Virus record (IMG/VR): IMGVR_UViG_3300035698_000064 | Span: 1-42,708 of that record | DNA from: a virus | Reading direction: 5' to 3' (one strand) | Length of the DNA stretch: 42,708 nucleotides | Shown here: piece by piece, positions 3,001 to 26,907 of the stretch | Position numbering within the stretch: position 1 is the first letter of the stretch | Layout of the letters: every line of letters begins with the position of its first letter | The notes under the pieces: model-generated | The model's input: only the letters and a program-made list of their open reading frames with translations | The model's database searches: none | Told to the model about the DNA's origin: nothing | Translations under genes and position numbers: made by a program

Positions 3001-3585
3001 TTTGGATTTGATGGAAGTGGTTCCAACACTGGTCCCTTCAGAATCTACTGGTCACCAAAGCCATCCTCTAAATTCCTCGCTGTTGACCTCAGTGGTTATC
3101 AGTACGGTGCATGGAAAGGGGAGTACGCAGGAGGAGATGATTTCTCAGGATATACAGGTCCAGCGTATCAAATCTTTTCACAGGGCTATAATATGTCGGC
3201 ACCCGTCTCTGCCCTGCTGTTCGATGATGGCAACTCAGTAAGCTCTGTCTACCCAGACCTAGTTAAACTAAGCATTGACTCAGACGGTGATGGCTCTTAC
3301 GATAAGCTTTGGACCTCAGGCTTCTATTACTGTTCTGAGTTCCTAGACGACGACCCCCTTCAATGTATGCTAGATGAATCAGCATCAGACGCATTCCAGA
3401 ACGCTAAGAATGCTTCTACTGGAACCTCTGGCAAGCCTAAAAGGGTAACTATATACAGATCAAGAGAAGACGATAGTGGTGACGCTAGCCCCTCTAACAG
3501 AGGATCAGAAGCTTACCAAGGGGACAGAGATCATACGGTTGGATTCAAGTCCGCAAACATTTTCGATCTTCGGAGAGATAACTAA
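1..3585 (+). CDS. Large virion protein, beta-helix-like (probable tail/baseplate or fibre protein)
   Basis: This is a 1194-residue protein whose ATG is the first base of the window, so a start further upstream cannot be excluded. The N-terminus (residues 33-48) carries the signature FYNWEQDNLPLYDLEE, which recurs in related form in the next gene and probably docks the protein to the virion. From about residue 290 to 800 the sequence is a long series of short strands rich in N, S, V and G, with ladder-like repeats of the form NSxV and LExxxA, as expected for a parallel beta-helix like those of phage fibres and tailspikes. No catalytic motif is visible. The stop overlaps the next start (TAATG), so the first three genes form one translationally coupled unit. 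The structural role is inferred from size, fold pattern and context; the exact virion position is not known. Confidence 0.7.
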   Translation: MAFKREDQYAASGSTKLWNAWTPYVSKFDTSSFYNWEQDNLPLYDLEERTYEAWEQLGFPTSSVPGMALTVSADAGNTVEGQAQLLAESTLFTDVSSAIAAIPKVVRFPVLVEVGSFGDLGNMELHNFRIEEGGSIEIINRNASKFYSASSTVNNVAAGSVYNSSHDLIKRVDSLDLSNTFTNASCVHLGLSLLSGTDDSRFGTGYAFAHPQHTLRRGTVAFGYSVGTLDGNIFDWSLYENTAGGATYNDDTLPSYDTSTYDALNNDYPTRGQVDSSDSVKGVVYNNVARKISIKNCDGPIYIRGFVVDGNITSVDDGISVINSDVVLENCAAMRCNEAGFKFHNSKVTLSRTACSYRNYKLTDSATRAEETGVGFHAVNSEVTVSALLQPILSLDGPADFGASGVDVAVMASRNYLGFLLENSKLVGGYRRDSAINETTGGLLLSELNYGAGLEAINSQINLKGQIDFYGNARGLDLLGTTVRTENLCVDFTNTEALRAANSRVEFDSVVSPAQAGQASRAQFEFSKNGQHILLRNQSEVTFRRKNHLPAIYGNSFFLSSFGTITWDGANRNNLPGVSVEDQSTIELIHPKMVAHDSVVRNSADYGQILRAVNGSKASLFGTAAGCNFVWGPRTYNRQQFAAGLYAGRGSELNLHGPTVIAQYGIDALVEDNSVINIEPHRSRSGYGLEVSAFDLSAQANHTSVELHSTRACLVANRNSVINLQDLGSYTLHWPRTGRGGNLLAAGADYNLGSTGFASSGLTAYGSLQFFPNPSDSKIVTQNDLDDLISGGVAASVPDFPVFTAATDMNTFLVTDDPIGGSTDTATRGLASLGGVCLRAAGDSVVNVNNVHFPTGNNGGFMDGLFYDASGDNCHQLMIWNLADTSKLNASFLSVSGMYPGNSTYHGPSAMYVSSNTLGSNDTEYVAASGAPSSTPDTGTLSVLDPFGAGSAVGIWNLPVGATINSPFKRYHPITEAFNEATPSALAGAGVIVSANAAMPFGFDGSGSNTGPFRIYWSPKPSSKFLAVDLSGYQYGAWKGEYAGGDDFSGYTGPAYQIFSQGYNMSAPVSALLFDDGNSVSSVYPDLVKLSIDSDGDGSYDKLWTSGFYYCSEFLDDDPLQCMLDESASDAFQNAKNASTGTSGKPKRVTIYRSREDDSGDASPSNRGSEAYQGDRDHTVGFKSANIFDLRRDN

Positions 3586-6128
3586 TGGCTGAACAACAAT
3601 TTGAAGATAGCTCGTATAGGTTCTCTGACCCTATTAGATTCTTTAAGGCTAACGATCCTTACTACTTTGAGGTAGACAACATTCCTCTTAAGCAGCTACA
3701 GGAGAACTGCCAATGGCTTAAGGATCAGGTCAGAAAGACCGCTATAAAATTCACAGGAGTAAAGCGTGGGGACATTGATGAACTCAAGCCCTATGCTACA
3801 GGAGGAGATAGAAAGGTTAGAGTAAAGCCTGGTCGTTACTCTGCTCGTATCAATGATGCAGCTACCAAAGATCCTCTTGGCTATCTTCAGAAGGTAATGG
3901 GCGAAGCTCTAGGTGATGTAGATGCTTGGGCTGCTGCCACCGCCAATACCGGAACCTTTCCTGCGGGAACCGTTCCCTCCTATAACACCCTACTGTCAGA
4001 GTCTCTAGATAGATTCAAAAGCTCTCTCTCTCAGGATGCTCTAGGTATGACGGGTCTTGTAGGCAGAGCCTTCACTTGGCCTATCGTTAATGTAGACACT
4101 CCAGTAGACTCGGATGGTGTTAACCTGGATAGTACTGTAGGCTACGTCAAGTATAGCTCTAGTAACAACCCAGGTAACGGAGTAAGTAATGTACCCGCAG
4201 TAATTTCTCAAGCTATTACTTGGGCTAAGAGTGTTGGTAATAGTGCTCAGAGCTATGCTCTCCCTTCCTTTGAAACTACAAATCCTAACAATGGTTGGGC
4301 TAAGTTTCCTCTAACGGAGGCTTACTTCATTAACAAGTGGAGAGGCGTCTCTCGTCTAGCCATCGTTGATGTACCTGATGAGATTTCAATTGAGGTTCCT
4401 GCTTTCGATGCAGCAGACTTCAACTACATTGATGAGTTCGGAGACGAGCAGACTGTCGATGGCGTAGAGCAGCGCATTGATCTAGTCTTCATTTACTCCA
4501 AGCCTATTGACGCTTCCTCTACTACTATCCTCAAGCCCTCCGGTAAGGCTGTTATCACTAGCCCACAACTGGGTATTGTACGAGGAGCAGGCATTAAAGT
4601 AAACCTCTCAGATAAGCAGGACTTCCAATACGGACACCAAACTGAGGTATCCGATGAGCACAAGATCCTAGCCTCCCCTGGAGACCAAGAGAATGCAGAC
4701 ATGGGCTTCCTTGCTACTTCAGCTAACGATATCGCTAACGATGTCAGAGGCAGTTTCCCATCCCCCGATGATATCCTCAACCTCGCTCCACTCATTTCAG
4801 AGAAGCTTGAGGATGAGGCTATTGAACTAGTCGGCCAGTCCATTCTACCTGTGGCCTACGTTTGGGTAAAGAGTACTGGTAGTGAACTAACAAGTGGTGC
4901 TATCCCTATCCTTAGCACAGACGTAGTTGATATTCGTCCCTTCTTTAGAACAGCGGAGCTAGCATACAACGAGAGGGCTGGTATCGGTGGTGCAATGCCA
5001 CAGCTATCCCTAGCTAATCCTGCTGTCGGAAAGTCTCAGCTAGACTACGAAAGCAAGAGGCTATATGATTACTTCAACAACAAGATTAATGCGGTAGCAG
5101 ATCAGACTGGTCCTGAGGACGAGATGACAACCTTGGCTGCTGGCTATGTCTTTGGTGGTTGGAACTTTGGGCCTGAGGGGACACTGTTCGACTACTACCA
5201 AACTCAGTTCGGCGCTGACGATGCTGACGTAAATAACCCTGATGGTATCCTAGGAGCCGATGTACAGGCTATTAGGCAGTACGTTCTAGGTAAGTATGGT
5301 ATTGGAAGTAATGGAGCACAGGTTACCATTCCCTCCTACCCAGACTGGGACTTAGCTCAGTGGTGTATCCAGCAGGACGTTGGCGATAAGGGTCTCTACC
5401 CTAATGATTACATTAACACATTCTTCTCTGCTAAGAATGGCACAGGTCAAGATCCTTCTATCGTAGCAGGTAGCTACAGTCAGATGGTATTCGAAAACGG
5501 TACTACTGAAGGTGGTGGTTCCCCTGGAAGACTACAGAACTTCGACAACAACGAACTTAACGCTGGGGCTAATGTCTCAAGAGTAAACTTCCACTACGTT
5601 GCCAAGCGCATTAAGTTTAATCGTCAGGCAGTACCGTGGCTAGGAGATTATAAGGTTGATGTCAACTTCGTTAACTGCCTACCTCAAGTTCAGAGTCAGC
5701 AACAAGCTGCTTCCTATCATGGTTGGTGGGTAGAAAAAGGTTTCGATGAGTTCACTATCTATATTGCTTTCTCGGCTAACGACAACAACGCTGCTGGTAG
5801 TTCACAAACTCCTAGGTTCCCTGCTCCCCACTCCCTCTCCTTCACCACATCAGGAAAGAAGAAGAAGACAACCTCTGTCCTCAACGTATCAGACAGAGCG
5901 GGTGAAAGATTCAGTTCGTTTGTTGTCCCGGTATCTGATATCCTAAATGCTAACACAGATCCAATCGGTGAAGGTGCTGGAGCAGGCTATGTTGGAAACC
6001 CACGAATAGGAAAGTGTACTTACCCCTCTATTATGTGGAGTATTACAGGTATTCCTGTTAACACCGCTACCTACTTCTACGGAAACCTTAATAGTACCAA
6101 CCCCACTATTTCACTGAAGAGTAGCTAA
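3585..6128 (+). CDS. Large virion structural protein with shared N-terminal docking motif
   Basis: This is an 847-residue protein coupled to both neighbours by TAATG junctions. Residues 26-40 (YYFEVDNIPLKQLQE) match the N-terminal motif of the preceding protein, and the first 50 residues resemble the N-termini of large structural proteins in T4-like marine phages, as far as I recall the family. The middle is rich in N, G, D and Y without low-complexity repeats, which suggests several beta-rich domains. No transmembrane segment, coiled coil or enzymatic motif is apparent. Position between two other giant virion proteins and upstream of the head genes argues for a baseplate or fibre-attachment component. 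It could equally be an adhesin carrier. The call as a structural protein is fairly secure; the specific function is not. Confidence 0.65.
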   Translation: MAEQQFEDSSYRFSDPIRFFKANDPYYFEVDNIPLKQLQENCQWLKDQVRKTAIKFTGVKRGDIDELKPYATGGDRKVRVKPGRYSARINDAATKDPLGYLQKVMGEALGDVDAWAAATANTGTFPAGTVPSYNTLLSESLDRFKSSLSQDALGMTGLVGRAFTWPIVNVDTPVDSDGVNLDSTVGYVKYSSSNNPGNGVSNVPAVISQAITWAKSVGNSAQSYALPSFETTNPNNGWAKFPLTEAYFINKWRGVSRLAIVDVPDEISIEVPAFDAADFNYIDEFGDEQTVDGVEQRIDLVFIYSKPIDASSTTILKPSGKAVITSPQLGIVRGAGIKVNLSDKQDFQYGHQTEVSDEHKILASPGDQENADMGFLATSANDIANDVRGSFPSPDDILNLAPLISEKLEDEAIELVGQSILPVAYVWVKSTGSELTSGAIPILSTDVVDIRPFFRTAELAYNERAGIGGAMPQLSLANPAVGKSQLDYESKRLYDYFNNKINAVADQTGPEDEMTTLAAGYVFGGWNFGPEGTLFDYYQTQFGADDADVNNPDGILGADVQAIRQYVLGKYGIGSNGAQVTIPSYPDWDLAQWCIQQDVGDKGLYPNDYINTFFSAKNGTGQDPSIVAGSYSQMVFENGTTEGGGSPGRLQNFDNNELNAGANVSRVNFHYVAKRIKFNRQAVPWLGDYKVDVNFVNCLPQVQSQQQAASYHGWWVEKGFDEFTIYIAFSANDNNAAGSSQTPRFPAPHSLSFTTSGKKKKTTSVLNVSDRAGERFSSFVVPVSDILNANTDPIGEGAGAGYVGNPRIGKCTYPSIMWSITGIPVNTATYFYGNLNSTNPTISLKSS

Positions 6129-11729: not shown

Positions 11730-12374
11730 ATGAAAAACCTAAAGGACATTGCCTCTATCCTCCCCGAAGGACTTGATGAGTCTACTGTCGAAGCCATCTT
11801 CGAACTGGTAGATTCTGTCATTAATGAACAAGTCGGTGAGCATATCGGCCTCTTGGAAGCCAAAGTAACTGCCTTCCTAAGAACTAAGATCGATTCGATC
11901 AAAGATCAAGCTCTTACAGAACTCTCGGAGGAAAGCGAAGTATTCCACAACGCTAGACTCTTCGAGTCAGTAAGAACTCTCATGTCTCTAGAGCTTAATG
12001 CTGAGGATGAAGAGGGTGCTATCTCTGAAGTAGCTTCACAAAATGAAGAACTTCAAGAGGAGTACAACCTTCTATCTTCCCAACTCAAGAACATCATCGA
12101 AGAAAACCAAAAGCTGAGAAACTCAGTCAAGGTCTTCTCTTCGAAGGATACCATTCAAGAGAACAGCATTTCCAGGCTAGAGGCAGACAACGCACAGCTT
12201 CTTGAGGAAGTTGAGAATCTGAAGGCTTCTGAGGATGAGAACTTTGTCTCGTCTGAAAGAGCTATCGTTATGTCTCATGCAGATGAGCCAATTAACGAAG
12301 AGAGAACTCTAAAAACAAACAATGAGTTCTTAACTGATGAGGTCATGAAGTTCATGCCCTTCTCCCAAAAATAG
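11730..12374 (+). CDS. 22: Prohead scaffold (core) protein, T4 gp22-like
   Basis: This is a 214-residue acidic, alpha-helical protein. Residues 95-165 have the heptad pattern of a long coiled coil rich in E, L, N and K. It is placed between the prohead protease and the major capsid protein, exactly as gene 22 in T4. gp22 forms the inner scaffold on which the shell assembles and is degraded to peptides by gp21 during maturation. Direct sequence identity is low in this family, so the call rests on helix content, charge, size and order. The end lies 12 bases before the capsid start. Confidence 0.8.
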   Translation: MKNLKDIASILPEGLDESTVEAIFELVDSVINEQVGEHIGLLEAKVTAFLRTKIDSIKDQALTELSEESEVFHNARLFESVRTLMSLELNAEDEEGAISEVASQNEELQEEYNLLSSQLKNIIEENQKLRNSVKVFSSKDTIQENSISRLEADNAQLLEEVENLKASEDENFVSSERAIVMSHADEPINEERTLKTNNEFLTDEVMKFMPFSQK

Positions 12375-12386
12375 GATTATACACTA

Positions 12387-14015
12387 ATGTTAGATGTAAT
12401 GCATCAAACGGACCAAACGCTAGTCCAGAAGTGGGAGCCCGTACTTGAGGGTATTGATAATGAATATACCCGTCGTGTCACCGCTCAACTTCTAGAGAAC
12501 CAAGCCAAGGCCATTGTAGAGGATCGTATGAACGAGAGTATTTCCGCTGGTGCAACCACCACTGGTCAACTCGGTACATTCCAAAAGTTCGCGTTCCCAC
12601 TTGTCCGAAGAGTTTACCCCAAGCTCCTTGCAAACAGTCTTGTCGGCGTTCAGCCCATGCAAGGCCCTGTTTCCCAGGTATTCTACCTAGGTAACAGCCG
12701 CACCAATGATGGTGGTGCAACCAACCAAACCGTCTACAGTAAGCTTAACCTCACCTACAGAGGGCTAACAGCACAGCCAATTGGCTCAACCGAGTTTAAC
12801 CTAGCAGGTGCCAATGGTACTTTCCAAGGTGGTACTGCTGCTGGTCTTGATGGCGATGTTGCCCAGAACGGCTTTGACGTTTCAAACGTTCTTGCTGGTT
12901 CCGGTACTGAGATCACTGGCTACGGTGCTGGTTCTGGTACGTTCGGTGGACAGATTGCTGCCTTCCCAAACGCTAGTTCGGTAATGGGCTTCCAGCTTTC
13001 GGCTGGTGAGCGTCTAACTGGTACTGGTATCCCAGAGATGACCTTCCACATCGAGCAGGAAGCAGTCGTCGCAAACACCCGTAAGATGCGTGCTCTCTGG
13101 ACCCTTGAGGCTTCTCAAGACCTTAAAGCATATCACAACCTCGACCTTGAGCGTGAACTTACTGACCTTCTTTCCAAGGAACTCCAACTAGAGATCGACC
13201 GTGAACTCATTGAAGACCTTAGAATGATTGCCTATGGTATCGTTGGCCGTAACCTCGGTGGCATTAACCAGAACCTAATGGATAACTCCTACATCAACAT
13301 GGGTGGTGGAAGTGAGTTCCCAGGTATCGTAGACAAGGACAAGGCCGGAATTTTCGTTCCTGCTCAGTTCACCTACGACTTCAACGGTGCTCAAGGCACT
13401 GGCACCTCAACAGAACTAGGCTCTGCTACTGAAAGCTCCAACGTCTTCGTTGTTGATTTTAGCCAGAGTTCACTAGCACTCTACCCCCGTCACGTTGGCG
13501 AGGTCTACGCAAACCTTCTTGCCGTAATCAACCTTGCTTCACAAGACATCTATCGCACCACAATGCGAGGACCAGGCAACTGGCTCCTAACTTCTCCCCT
13601 CGTCGCTTCTCTCCTAGAGTCCGCTTCGAAGCTTGAAGGTGGAATAGCTCCCTCAGACGGTCCTTCCAACCTGGGGCAAAACTCGATTGAGTTCAAAGGT
13701 AAGTTCATGGGTCGCTACGATCTATACATCGACCCCATGTTCCCAACTGATGAGATCCTTATGGGATACAAAGGAAGTAACGCTATGGATTCTGGATACG
13801 TCTATGCTCCATACATCCCACTCCAGCAACTCCCAACGATTGTTGACCCAGAGACCTTCCAGCCAAGAAAAGGTCTCCTAACTCGCTACGGTAAGGTCAT
13901 GATTCAACCAAACAACAGGTTCTATCGCGTCATCCGTATCATCGGTCCAACAGCCAACTATCTCTTCACACCATTCGCTAGAAACACTGCTGCCCTAGGT
14001 GGTGCTGTAAGCTAG
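12387..14015 (+). CDS. 23: Major capsid protein, T4 gp23-like
   Basis: This 542-residue protein is the HK97-fold major capsid protein of the T4 group. Diagnostic segments are FPLVRRVYPKLLANSLVGVQ at residues 70-89, followed by PMQGPVSQVFYL, corresponding to the LVRRxxPxLIAxDxxGVQPM region of T4 gp23. The N-terminal about 50-65 residues form the charged delta-type segment expected to be removed by the gp21 protease; the exact cleavage site is not certain. The C-terminus (LTRYGKVMIQPNNRFYRVIR) is also typical. An AGGA site lies 10 bases before the ATG. A strong intrinsic terminator follows 28 bases after the stop, which fits a highly expressed terminal gene of the head unit. Confidence 0.95.
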   Translation: MLDVMHQTDQTLVQKWEPVLEGIDNEYTRRVTAQLLENQAKAIVEDRMNESISAGATTTGQLGTFQKFAFPLVRRVYPKLLANSLVGVQPMQGPVSQVFYLGNSRTNDGGATNQTVYSKLNLTYRGLTAQPIGSTEFNLAGANGTFQGGTAAGLDGDVAQNGFDVSNVLAGSGTEITGYGAGSGTFGGQIAAFPNASSVMGFQLSAGERLTGTGIPEMTFHIEQEAVVANTRKMRALWTLEASQDLKAYHNLDLERELTDLLSKELQLEIDRELIEDLRMIAYGIVGRNLGGINQNLMDNSYINMGGGSEFPGIVDKDKAGIFVPAQFTYDFNGAQGTGTSTELGSATESSNVFVVDFSQSSLALYPRHVGEVYANLLAVINLASQDIYRTTMRGPGNWLLTSPLVASLLESASKLEGGIAPSDGPSNLGQNSIEFKGKFMGRYDLYIDPMFPTDEILMGYKGSNAMDSGYVYAPYIPLQQLPTIVDPETFQPRKGLLTRYGKVMIQPNNRFYRVIRIIGPTANYLFTPFARNTAALGGAVS

Positions 14016-23872: not shown

Positions 23873-23956
23873 GTGAAAGAACTAGAGAAGGATAACCGTA
23901 GTCTCCAAGGTAAGCTTAATTTAATTCTAGCTGTTGTGGATCAGGGCTGTAAGTAA
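23873..23956 (+). CDS. Possible 27-residue coiled-coil ORF or gene remnant
   Basis: A GTG at 23873, preceded nine bases earlier by AAGGGA, opens 27 codons reading VKELEKDNRSLQGKLNLILA and on to TAA at 23954-23956. The frame is open back to about 23832 and has plausible coding character, but no ATG lies in it. An ATG at 23844 just after TATAAT is in another frame and stops at 23876. This may be a tiny gene, a programmed frameshift product or a gene broken by an indel. Its end overlaps the sigma-factor gene's 3' end on the other strand. Confidence 0.25.
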   Translation: MKELEKDNRSLQGKLNLILAVVDQGCK

Positions 23957-24288
23957 TCACGTTTCATCTTAGCTGAATAACCTTCGATCTTCTCATTGTA
24001 CTTCTTATCTTTGGTATACATTAGCTTGAGATTATTTACGATGATAGTGGTGAAGTAGTTGAAAGCTGTTCCCTTCTTAGCTTTGAAGTTTTTTACGACC
24101 TTCAGTACCAAAGCGAAGCACTCTTGTTTTGCATCATCAGACGGTACTTTGAATCTAAATGAATCAACGATGTTTGTGATTAGGAGATCGATCAGCCCGA
24201 CGAACTCATCTTCGTGAGTTTTTGGATCCTCTTGGTATGATAGGATGATCCGTTCGAACTCCTTGTTGTCAATGTAGTGCTTACCCAT
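23941..24288 (-). CDS. 55: Late-transcription sigma factor, T4 gp55-like
   Basis: This 115-residue minus-strand protein looks like the sigma factor for late genes. The key segment is DDAKQECFALVLKVVKNFKA followed by KKGTAFNYFTTIIVNNLKLM (residues 51-90), which matches region 2 of sigma factors (helix, then GxAFxYF-TxIIxN) as found in the gp55 family. It is shorter than T4 gp55 (185 residues) and I see no separate region 4, consistent with recognition of a TATA-type box without a -35 element. It is divergently placed 13 bases from the polymerase start. Its partners gp33 and the sliding clamp gp45 are not in the window. Confidence 0.8.
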   Translation of the reverse strand: MGKHYIDNKEFERIILSYQEDPKTHEDEFVGLIDLLITNIVDSFRFKVPSDDAKQECFALVLKVVKNFKAKKGTAFNYFTTIIVNNLKLMYTKDKKYNEKIEGYSAKMKRDYLQP

Positions 24289-24301: not shown

Positions 24302-25336
24302 ATGTTGAACCTAGATAAACTCTACTCTAGCCATGATTTAGGTGGAGATGATGGTAAATGTTCCGGCTGCTCAATTCTGAAGCAGTCTAAACCTCGTCAC
24401 TCTATCACAGATTACGATACCCTCCCAGAGAAAGAGATCCTGTTCGTATCTGATTCCTTTACGTGGACCGCTGGGAATGCTAATGCCTTTGGAGCTATTG
24501 AGCAGACAACTCTGAAGCAATTCATTCCCTTCCCTGAGGAGGAGTATACGTTTACTGCTTCTGTGAAATGTCCTAGTGTGAAAGAGGGGGATATGTCTCC
24601 TGAGAACATGAAGATTTGCAGGGGTCATTTGGATGAGACCATCCTTAAGGTAAAGCCTAAGCTGGTATTCCCCTGTGGCAACCTAGCTATGAAGATGCTC
24701 ATTAAGAAGAGTGGTATTCAGAACAAAAGAGGGAAGTCTTTCCCCTTCACTACAGCTAATGGAGAGCATACCTGTACGGTAGTTCCCCTGTACCATCCTT
24801 GGTCTATCAGCCAAGAGCCTCGTCTCCACAAGATGTTCAAGGCTGACCTGATTAACAGCTATGAAAAGTTCATCCTCAACAAGACTAACTACGGCCCTCT
24901 CGAATACAGAGTAATCTACACGGAAGAGAAGCTAGAATACCTGGCTAAGTTCCTTGAGAATTACACTGATAAGATGGCAGTAGACCTTGAGACTACAGGA
25001 CTGGACTTCCTTCAGGACTCCATCCAGACTATCTCCTTTACCCTTAGGGAAGGGACGTTCGTAGTACCTTGGAACCACAAGGACTCCCCCTTCAGAGAAG
25101 GAGAGGGCTCCCACGAAAAGCTCATCGATTGTATGACACGCATCCTGAGCAATCCTTTTAGTCGCAAGATGTATCACAACGTCAAGTTCGACTACAAGTT
25201 CCTCTACCATGCTGGTATCAAGACCGTAAAGATCTGGGACACCAAGCTAATGCACCACACTTACGATGAGGATATGCCCAACAGTCTAATGGACCTCGTT
25301 AAATTCTACTTCCCTAAAGAACTAGAGGAATTCTAG
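24302..25336 (+). CDS. polA: DNA polymerase A part 1: UDG-like Fe-S domain plus 3'-5' exonuclease N-part
   Basis: This 344-residue protein is the first of three pieces of a family A DNA polymerase. Residues 1-190 resemble family 4/5 uracil-DNA glycosylases, with cysteines C20, C23, C90 and C106 in the Fe-S spacing (C-x2-C, then C-x15-C) and a YHP motif at 164-166. The glycosylase GEAPG motif is replaced by VSDSFT, so enzymatic activity is doubtful. Residues 223-344 hold the proofreading exonuclease start: Exo I DLETTGLDF (D228, E230) and Exo II YHNVKFDY (N293, D297). The frame ends in TAG at 25334-25336, immediately followed in the same frame by the ATG of part 2, so the Exo III motif is missing here and lies in part 2. 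Confidence 0.85.
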   Translation: MLNLDKLYSSHDLGGDDGKCSGCSILKQSKPRHSITDYDTLPEKEILFVSDSFTWTAGNANAFGAIEQTTLKQFIPFPEEEYTFTASVKCPSVKEGDMSPENMKICRGHLDETILKVKPKLVFPCGNLAMKMLIKKSGIQNKRGKSFPFTTANGEHTCTVVPLYHPWSISQEPRLHKMFKADLINSYEKFILNKTNYGPLEYRVIYTEEKLEYLAKFLENYTDKMAVDLETTGLDFLQDSIQTISFTLREGTFVVPWNHKDSPFREGEGSHEKLIDCMTRILSNPFSRKMYHNVKFDYKFLYHAGIKTVKIWDTKLMHHTYDEDMPNSLMDLVKFYFPKELEEF

Positions 25337-25819
25337 ATGCTAACTATTCAGAACCCTAAGACATTCGACTGGGCAAATATGTCCCTAGCTGATTGTTGTG
25401 AGGGTAACGCAATGGATACTCACTTCACCTTCAAGCTCTACGAGTTGATGGAAGAGAAGATGATCGACTCCCCCGTATGGAAGTTCCTAGAAAATGTTGC
25501 CATGCCTTCTCTTGAGATTTTCGGAGAGATGGAGTATCATGGTGTTCACGTTAGTACAGAGAGGCTAGAGTCTGTAGGCAAGTTCCTCAACGATAGGAAC
25601 AAAGACCTTGAGGATGCACTTCGTAAGTTCGATTTCATCTCTGAAGAAGACAACCTCTCCTCCAACGAAGCACTGAAGCAAATCTTCTATCTAAGGGAGG
25701 GAGCAATGGAGTTCTACCCACCTGATCGTACCAAAAAAGGAGAGCCTTCCTGCGCTGCTGCTACCTTCACACTTCTACTAACACAAATCAACGAAGAACT
25801 AGAACGTAGGGCATCATGA
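25337..25819 (+). CDS. polA: DNA polymerase A part 2: end of exonuclease plus thumb start
   Basis: This 160-residue protein continues part 1 in the same frame directly after its TAG. Residues 16-40 (LADCCEGNAMDTHFTFKLYE) correspond to the Exo III motif with D27 as the catalytic aspartate; the usual Tyr four residues earlier is Gly (G23). Residues 60-160 correspond to the region between exonuclease and palm in PolA, including DRTKKGEPSCAAATF, like the TKKGxxS segment of A-family polymerases. The ATG directly abuts the previous stop (TAGATG), ideal for termination-reinitiation but with no ribosome-binding site of its own. It ends in an ATGA overlap with part 3. On its own it would have no activity; it should assemble with parts 1 and 3. 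Confidence 0.8.
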   Translation: MLTIQNPKTFDWANMSLADCCEGNAMDTHFTFKLYELMEEKMIDSPVWKFLENVAMPSLEIFGEMEYHGVHVSTERLESVGKFLNDRNKDLEDALRKFDFISEEDNLSSNEALKQIFYLREGAMEFYPPDRTKKGEPSCAAATFTLLLTQINEELERRAS

Positions 25820-26907
25820 GTAAGTGGAAAGAAAGGCAACAGTCTAAGAAGATTAGTGCTGCTGTCATTACGGACAAGTCTACCAAGGAACTCAAGGTAG
25901 CTGCTAGCTTTATCAAAGAGCTTCTAGATCTGAAGAAGTCTCTGAAGCTACAAAAGACCTACATCGTAGGTACACGCGCTGCAATTGAGTACAATGGATA
26001 CAACAAGATCTTCCTGGACTTCCGCTTTGAGGGTACTGCTACGGGTAGACTGTCCTGTGCATCGTACAATGCTAAGAAGCGCAAGGGAGTTTCCTTCCAC
26101 ACTCTACCCAGACCTGATGAGGATGACGACGAGGGTAGTAACCTAGCTTCAAACATTCGCAGCCTATTCATTCCACCTCCTACCTGGGATTTCATTACGG
26201 CTGACTATGCTACGATGGAACTGCGTATCCTGGCTCATATTGCTGGGGAAGAGAATATGCTCAAGGCTTTCCGTAGTGGGGAAGACCTTCACTCGTACAC
26301 AGCTAGACTAGTATTCGGTAAGGAGAAGATCTCCAAGTTCGAACGACAGCTTGCCAAGGCTGTATCGTTCCTAATTGTATATGGTGGTGGCCCATTCAAC
26401 CTAAGTGAGACTATGGGTATTCCTATGCGTCGAGCCGAGGAGATCATTGGAGCGTATCAGACTGTCTACCCTAAGGTCTTCTCTTACATGGACAAGGTAA
26501 ACGACTCCACTAAGATGAGAGGATATGCTGAGTCCATCTTTGGTCGTAGGAGACACCTACCCAACGTAAACAGTAAAGACCTTAAGCTAGTCAACAGAGC
26601 CCTCCGACAAGGACTAAACTTCACTGTCCAGAGCCCTGCCTCGGACGTTCTACTCTGTGCTGTCATTGGTATCACTCAAGAGTTTAAGGAACGAGAGATG
26701 GAAGCTAGGGTAGTAGCAACAGTCCATGACTCCATCGAAGTTGTCTCCCCTTCCTGGGAAACCAGAGAGGCTGCACTCATTGTCAAGAATGAAATGGAAC
26801 AATACCCTGTGCTAAGAGAACGTATGGGCATGGAATTTAGCGTGCCCCTAGTTGCTGACATTGAGGTAGGGGATTCATTCGGAACAGGAAAGAAACTAGA
26901 ACTATGA
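25816..26907 (+). CDS. polA: DNA polymerase A part 3: palm and fingers (catalytic core)
   Basis: This 363-residue protein carries the polymerase active site. Motif A is DYATMELR with catalytic D130 and E135. Motif B is RQLAKAVSFLIVYG with R177, K181, F185 and Y189; Phe at 185 predicts E. coli Pol I-like rather than T7-like discrimination against ddNTPs. Motif C is VHDS with H304 and D305, with Ser where Pol I has Glu. TGRLS at residues 76-80 is the usual template-contact segment. The frame is -1 relative to part 2, and a TAG at 25807-25809 upstream in this frame limits any frameshift to the overlap. It is the replicative polymerase by context (helicase, SSB nearby). The stop overlaps thyX (ATGA). 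Confidence 0.92.
   Translation: MSKWKERQQSKKISAAVITDKSTKELKVAASFIKELLDLKKSLKLQKTYIVGTRAAIEYNGYNKIFLDFRFEGTATGRLSCASYNAKKRKGVSFHTLPRPDEDDDEGSNLASNIRSLFIPPPTWDFITADYATMELRILAHIAGEENMLKAFRSGEDLHSYTARLVFGKEKISKFERQLAKAVSFLIVYGGGPFNLSETMGIPMRRAEEIIGAYQTVYPKVFSYMDKVNDSTKMRGYAESIFGRRRHLPNVNSKDLKLVNRALRQGLNFTVQSPASDVLLCAVIGITQEFKEREMEARVVATVHDSIEVVSPSWETREAALIVKNEMEQYPVLRERMGMEFSVPLVADIEVGDSFGTGKKLEL

Follow-up and report, generated by a model that had tools for sequence, protein, structure and literature searches.

The TAG codon that directly abuts an in-frame ATG in the window, the 42.7-kb virus record analysed here, is, judged from the sequence comparisons, the border between two of three neighbouring polymerase genes, and it belongs to a stable gene split rather than to a readthrough switch, since the arrangement is kept by a whole phage lineage. 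The three consecutive genes, whose products are called parts A, B and C below, very probably encode one family-A replicative polymerase, with chains that would assemble into a single enzyme and a proofreading site that would be bipartite. The most likely form of this enzyme is a heterotrimer whose chains would be started by coupled translation or reinitiation. Ribosomes would terminate at the stop codon of A and restart at B, in the window at the abutting ATG with GAGG 8 nt upstream, and with B and C joined by an ATGA overlap, three chains would be made from A, B and C. The proofreading site would be built jointly, with D, E and D contributed by A and the last D by B. A widespread phage lineage would then keep a central replicative enzyme as three genes, with a catalytic site spanning two chains. 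It can be tested whether the split site works in trans and without the usual tyrosine, and whether proofreading can be parted from synthesis.

Gene structure of the window

The features of the polymerase region, all on the + strand, are as follows.

24302-25336 (+): part A, 344 aa; UDG-like N-terminal domain, ExoI (D228, E230) and ExoII (D297), ending with TAG (PF03167, PF01612)
25325-25328 (+): GAGG, Shine-Dalgarno-like, 8 nt upstream of the start of B (sequence)
25334-25339 (+): abutting TAG-ATG at the A/B boundary; in relatives with A and B adjacent mostly TAATG, shorter by one base (sequence)
25337-25819 (+): part B, 160 aa; ExoIII (Gly23 at the Tyr position, D27) and the beginning of the thumb (phrog_17 DNA polymerase)
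25816-25819 (+): ATGA overlap at the B/C boundary, the second cut in the polymerase (sequence, ORFs)
25816-26907 (+): part C, 363 aa; remaining thumb, palm and fingers (PF00476, E 1.9e-75)

The sequence GAGGAATTCTAGATGCTAACT covers window positions 25325-25345 and contains TAG at 25334-25336 and ATG at 25337-25339 in a common frame, as described in the first-pass annotation, and the alignment with the Klenow fragment agrees with the annotation that this boundary parts ExoI and ExoII (part A) from ExoIII (part B). A readthrough product of the 344-aa part 1 and the 160-aa part 2 would have 505 residues. Only the window has this in-frame form without a gap, but it is unremarkable in a genome with 18 same-strand neighbours spaced by -4 to +5 nt.

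Family-A polymerases are usually single chains, but split ones are known, so that this trait is common rather than strictly defining. The polymerase described here is distributed over three ORFs in the window and in 216 loci. Motifs A, B and C of the family-A polymerase domain are all located in part C, and the motifs DY, R-K-F-YG and HD are invariant in an alignment of 17 sequences. Placed end to end, A and B are collinear with the exonuclease and thumb of Klenow in the alignment. A UDG-like domain in part A was recognised both by PF03167 (UDG superfamily) and by alignment to UDGs. A Pfam search with part B gave no match, and surveys that look for one polA gene would therefore overlook it as a hypothetical protein. 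The window also matches phage major head protein, tail sheath, helicase and SSB. Upstream of the polymerase lie a PDDEXK endonuclease gene (PF24608; 22575-23090, -) and an opposite-strand ORF without family match (23941-24288, -), both of which are also present in most relatives whose contig extends there.

The exonuclease site and the UDG-like domain

In the Klenow alignment, D228 and E230 of part A correspond to ExoI, D297 to ExoII and D27 of part B to the ExoIII aspartate, so that the D-E-D-D set of a DEDDy exonuclease (PF01612) is complete, though its residues reside on two chains. The tyrosine of this class, four residues before the ExoIII aspartate, is absent: the alignment places Gly23 of B there, as first-pass annotation had stated, and the replacement holds throughout the split lineage. 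Glycine was found in 108/108 scoreable split-lineage sequences, including those with B and C joined, whereas 21 of 23 fused relatives read by eye have Tyr and none has Gly (Phe in L265, Arg in L270; the Tyr of L259 belongs to the fused class, as L259 is a fused locus); part of this sequence set consists of near copies of one another, and three further split-lineage sequences that lack the region of the Tyr position were left unscored. This difference between split and fused sequences is what one would expect if the three chains are made but no longer proofread, with the loss of the ExoIII Tyr marking the loss of the exonuclease and the chains being kept for structural reasons. We consider this explanation rather unlikely, because some of the carboxylates should have disappeared from a site no longer in use, whereas D228, E230, D297 and D27 are invariant in alignments of 18 sequences. 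It is a tentative idea, and one with the odds against it, that proofreading is completed in trans, with part A leaving or joining so that fidelity changes by subunit exchange, and that the loss of the Tyr came with the split.

Structure prediction of A and B as a single 505-residue chain with AlphaFold2 (TAG read as Q; 28-row alignment from which two GenBank-phage rows were left out) gave a mean pLDDT of 87.3 and a pTM of 0.64, with pLDDT below 50 for residues 349-351 near the junction. Comparison by VIA-align 2 yielded Z 20.9 and rmsd 6.8 over 273 residues with Klenow (1kln), the rmsd of exonuclease plus thumb to Klenow thus being high, and Z 20.8 and rmsd 2.7 over 192 residues with RNase D (1yt3); the compared rows span residues 198-497, so that the UDG fold lies outside their reach. 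The predicted model shows that the A and B halves suit one Klenow-like exonuclease fold. As both parts were folded as one chain, covalence was imposed and the assembly of separate chains lies outside the reach of this model.

In the UDG-like domain of part A (window 24302-24880), C20, C23, C90 and C106 are invariant in 18 sequences. C90 and C106 align with cysteines of solved UDGs and C20 and C23 fall outside those alignments. Family-4 type uracil-DNA glycosylases have four Fe-S cysteines and a GEAPG-type catalytic motif; the latter is missing from this domain, where SDSFTW aligns opposite GEAPGE. The spacing of the cysteines suits an Fe-S cluster, and the domain may be a structural Fe-S domain of the polymerase.

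Conservation of the split and the start of part B

First-pass annotation had proposed to look for a sense codon at the junction in relatives, and a first scan with part B retrieved 32 related IMG/VR loci, none of which has a sense codon at the A/B junction. Profile scans enlarged the set to 275 sequences, window included. States were assigned by matching profiles of the three parts to ORFs from all six frames, and a contig may recur in the resulting counts: 216 loci with three separate genes (A-B-C), 6 with A separate and B and C joined (A-BC), 25 fused and none with A and B joined (AB-C). Firm A-BC cases are L233, L234/L235, L238 and L246. L226, listed with B and C fused, is not counted as a firm intermediate since its contig stops inside C and those neighbours that share its gap are of the split type.

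The 116 distinct A/B junctions comprise 63 with a 1-nt stop/start overlap of the TAATG type that places B in another frame, one with a 7-nt overlap, 51 with 151-2403 nt between A and B, and the in-frame zero-gap form of the window, which occurs nowhere else. A stop codon is present in 116/116 junctions of the split lineage, indicating that the stop between A and B is not a product of chance. The simplest account of the window form would be the addition of one G to the TAATG of the relatives, giving TAGATG. The gaps, as read, contain small same-strand ORFs, opposite-strand genes or one more same-strand gene. At the B/C boundary, C mostly begins at a GTG that gives an overlap of 8 nt, and ATGA overlaps were found in 20/107 cases; the relative frame differs between relatives (+1 or +2). 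More than 500 bases separate B and C in L189 (near 3412-3998) and L220 (near 5496-6034), so this second break can take inserts too.

Among the cultured phages of the phage collection, part B had no close match, the best reaching 28% identity. A profile scan of genome contigs returned a single match, L275 (QCKN01000003.1) from the Prochlorococcus single-cell genome AG-409-P03. The contig of 130,604 bp is phage-like and carries the same split polymerase; it may derive from a phage infecting this cell or from a passenger in it.

Sequencing or assembly errors or a decaying pseudogene could also produce an interrupted polymerase, and the in-frame stop-start is indeed seen only at the window's own junction, while its part C sits on a long branch (0.94) in the tree. 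We regard this explanation as very improbable, as the split itself is present in more than 100 distinct sequences, and a one-base error would at most have changed TAATG to TAGATG, still leaving two genes. Furthermore, purifying selection acts on all three parts in the one close pair compared, L003 and L008 (dN/dS of 0.083 for A, 0.040 for B and 0.049 for C), and in long relatives no second polymerase was found. The relative contigs G001, G003, G004 and G005 contain one PF00476 match each, and neither they nor the window matched PF00136, PF07733 or PF00929 (family-B, PolIII-alpha, RNase_T); as these contigs are possibly fragments, the absence of a second polymerase is limited to what they hold.

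In T4-like phages, overlaps of the TAATG type are interpreted as a sign of translational coupling (PMC2988022). Consistent with an independent start of B, a Shine-Dalgarno-like motif precedes B in 40/65 adjacent junctions, compared to 15.4 +/- 3.2 expected with synonymous codons redrawn from A-gene usage (1000 draws, maximum 24 junctions); since the junction sequences are related, this count overstates independence and is to be read as support, not as a probability. In the gap class, such a motif was found upstream of B in 9/51 junctions. At loci whose A and B are separated by opposite-strand genes (L016, L023, L027, L033, L109 and others), ATATATAG or a similar sequence is located a few bases before the ATG of B, and B starts of this type have no Shine-Dalgarno-like motif. 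On the opposite strand, ATATATAG may be the promoter of the inserted gene.

Readthrough and frameshifting

First-pass annotation had allowed two outcomes at the TAG, termination followed by a new start, giving two chains, or amber readthrough in a suppressing host, tuning proofreading. The first agrees with our analysis and the second does not. With a suppressor in host or phage, a 505-residue A-B chain would be made beside two short chains and their ratio would set proofreading. TAG and ATG are in frame and 160 codons are open past the TAG, but this frame continuity is confined to the window and is not kept in any other of the 116 junctions. In relatives, B is shifted in frame or set apart from A by other genes, where readthrough cannot yield an A-B chain, and the stop of A varies, with TAA at 77, TAG at 21 and TGA at 7 distinct A ends. 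Within the window, TAG is an ordinary stop codon that ends 8 of 41 genes (TAA 24, TGA 9), including those for the major capsid protein, tail sheath and SSB. Another TAG, at 12372-12374 (window 11730-14015), is followed by an in-frame stretch open to the major capsid gene at 12387, which illustrates that a stop with an open frame beyond is not special here and arises by chance. With ARAGORN, the window gave no tRNA; of two long relatives, G001 (130.6 kb) has four tRNAs, none of them an amber suppressor, and G003 (98.5 kb) gave none at all. We therefore hold amber readthrough to be highly unlikely. Programmed frameshifting that joins the three parts across both boundaries is even harder to credit: the 64 overlapping A/B junctions share a common frame step, but in the window this step is 0, at gap junctions it varies and at B/C it differs between relatives, and several loci have opposite-strand genes between A and B. 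With junction frames as varied as these, neither readthrough nor a fixed frameshift can explain the whole set, and we retain the stable split into three genes as the preferred reading.

Origin of the split

In trees of part C, the fused, A-BC and A-B-C rows require two state changes. In the careful part C tree, which includes the window, fused and split sequences are separated with support of 100/99, the A-BC sequences group with 100/100, and the A-B-C sequences form one side of a branch with 89/49. The distribution of the states, with fused distant relatives, a small A-BC clade and a main A-B-C lineage, suggests stepwise fission, for which the simplest order would be a first cut between ExoII and ExoIII and a second one in the thumb. 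Alternatively, the gene may have been split three ways in a single event, with later re-fusion in the A-BC clade; the branches of the fused sequences are long and leave the root of the part C tree unsure.

Comparison with known systems

With its collinear exonuclease and thumb and the same D-E-D-D carboxylates, the Klenow fragment of E. coli DNA polymerase I resembles the enzyme proposed here, but it is a single chain that has kept the ExoIII Tyr, in contrast to three chains with Gly. Fused phage PolA proteins with a UDG-like N-terminus, such as that of Lysinibacillus phage LysYB1, are distant homologues with the same domain order, and differ by being one chain with the ExoIII Tyr present. RM378 was considered as a precedent and rejected: its p92 polymerase has motifs that, on inspection by eye, look like those of family B, and neither p92 nor p12 was matched significantly by the profiles of the three parts.

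In phage Aeh1, the essential enzyme encoded by nrdA is made from two chains and its function is kept (PMC2988022). The enzyme there is a ribonucleotide reductase, and a homing endonuclease lies where its gene is broken, whereas no homing endonuclease was recognised among the ORFs at the A/B break in the eight loci read by eye. The replicative polymerase of the T4-related Aeromonas phages 25 and 44RR is encoded by the split genes 43A and 43B, and the two chains of phage 25 co-purify and have polymerase activity (PMC2988022). These are family-B enzymes in two pieces, in contrast to the three pieces of a family-A enzyme in the window. Likewise in a marine phage lineage, the OM43 phages MEP401 and MEP402 have a family-A polymerase in two ORFs (PMC10580990). 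It is cut inside PF00476 with the exonuclease left whole, whereas here there are three pieces and one cut lies inside the exonuclease. In the open-access literature we found no family-A polymerase in three pieces and none cut inside the exonuclease, as here between ExoII and ExoIII. Divided polymerases have precedents among phages, and what appears to be new, as far as sequence comparison can tell, is the three-piece family-A form with a cut through its exonuclease.
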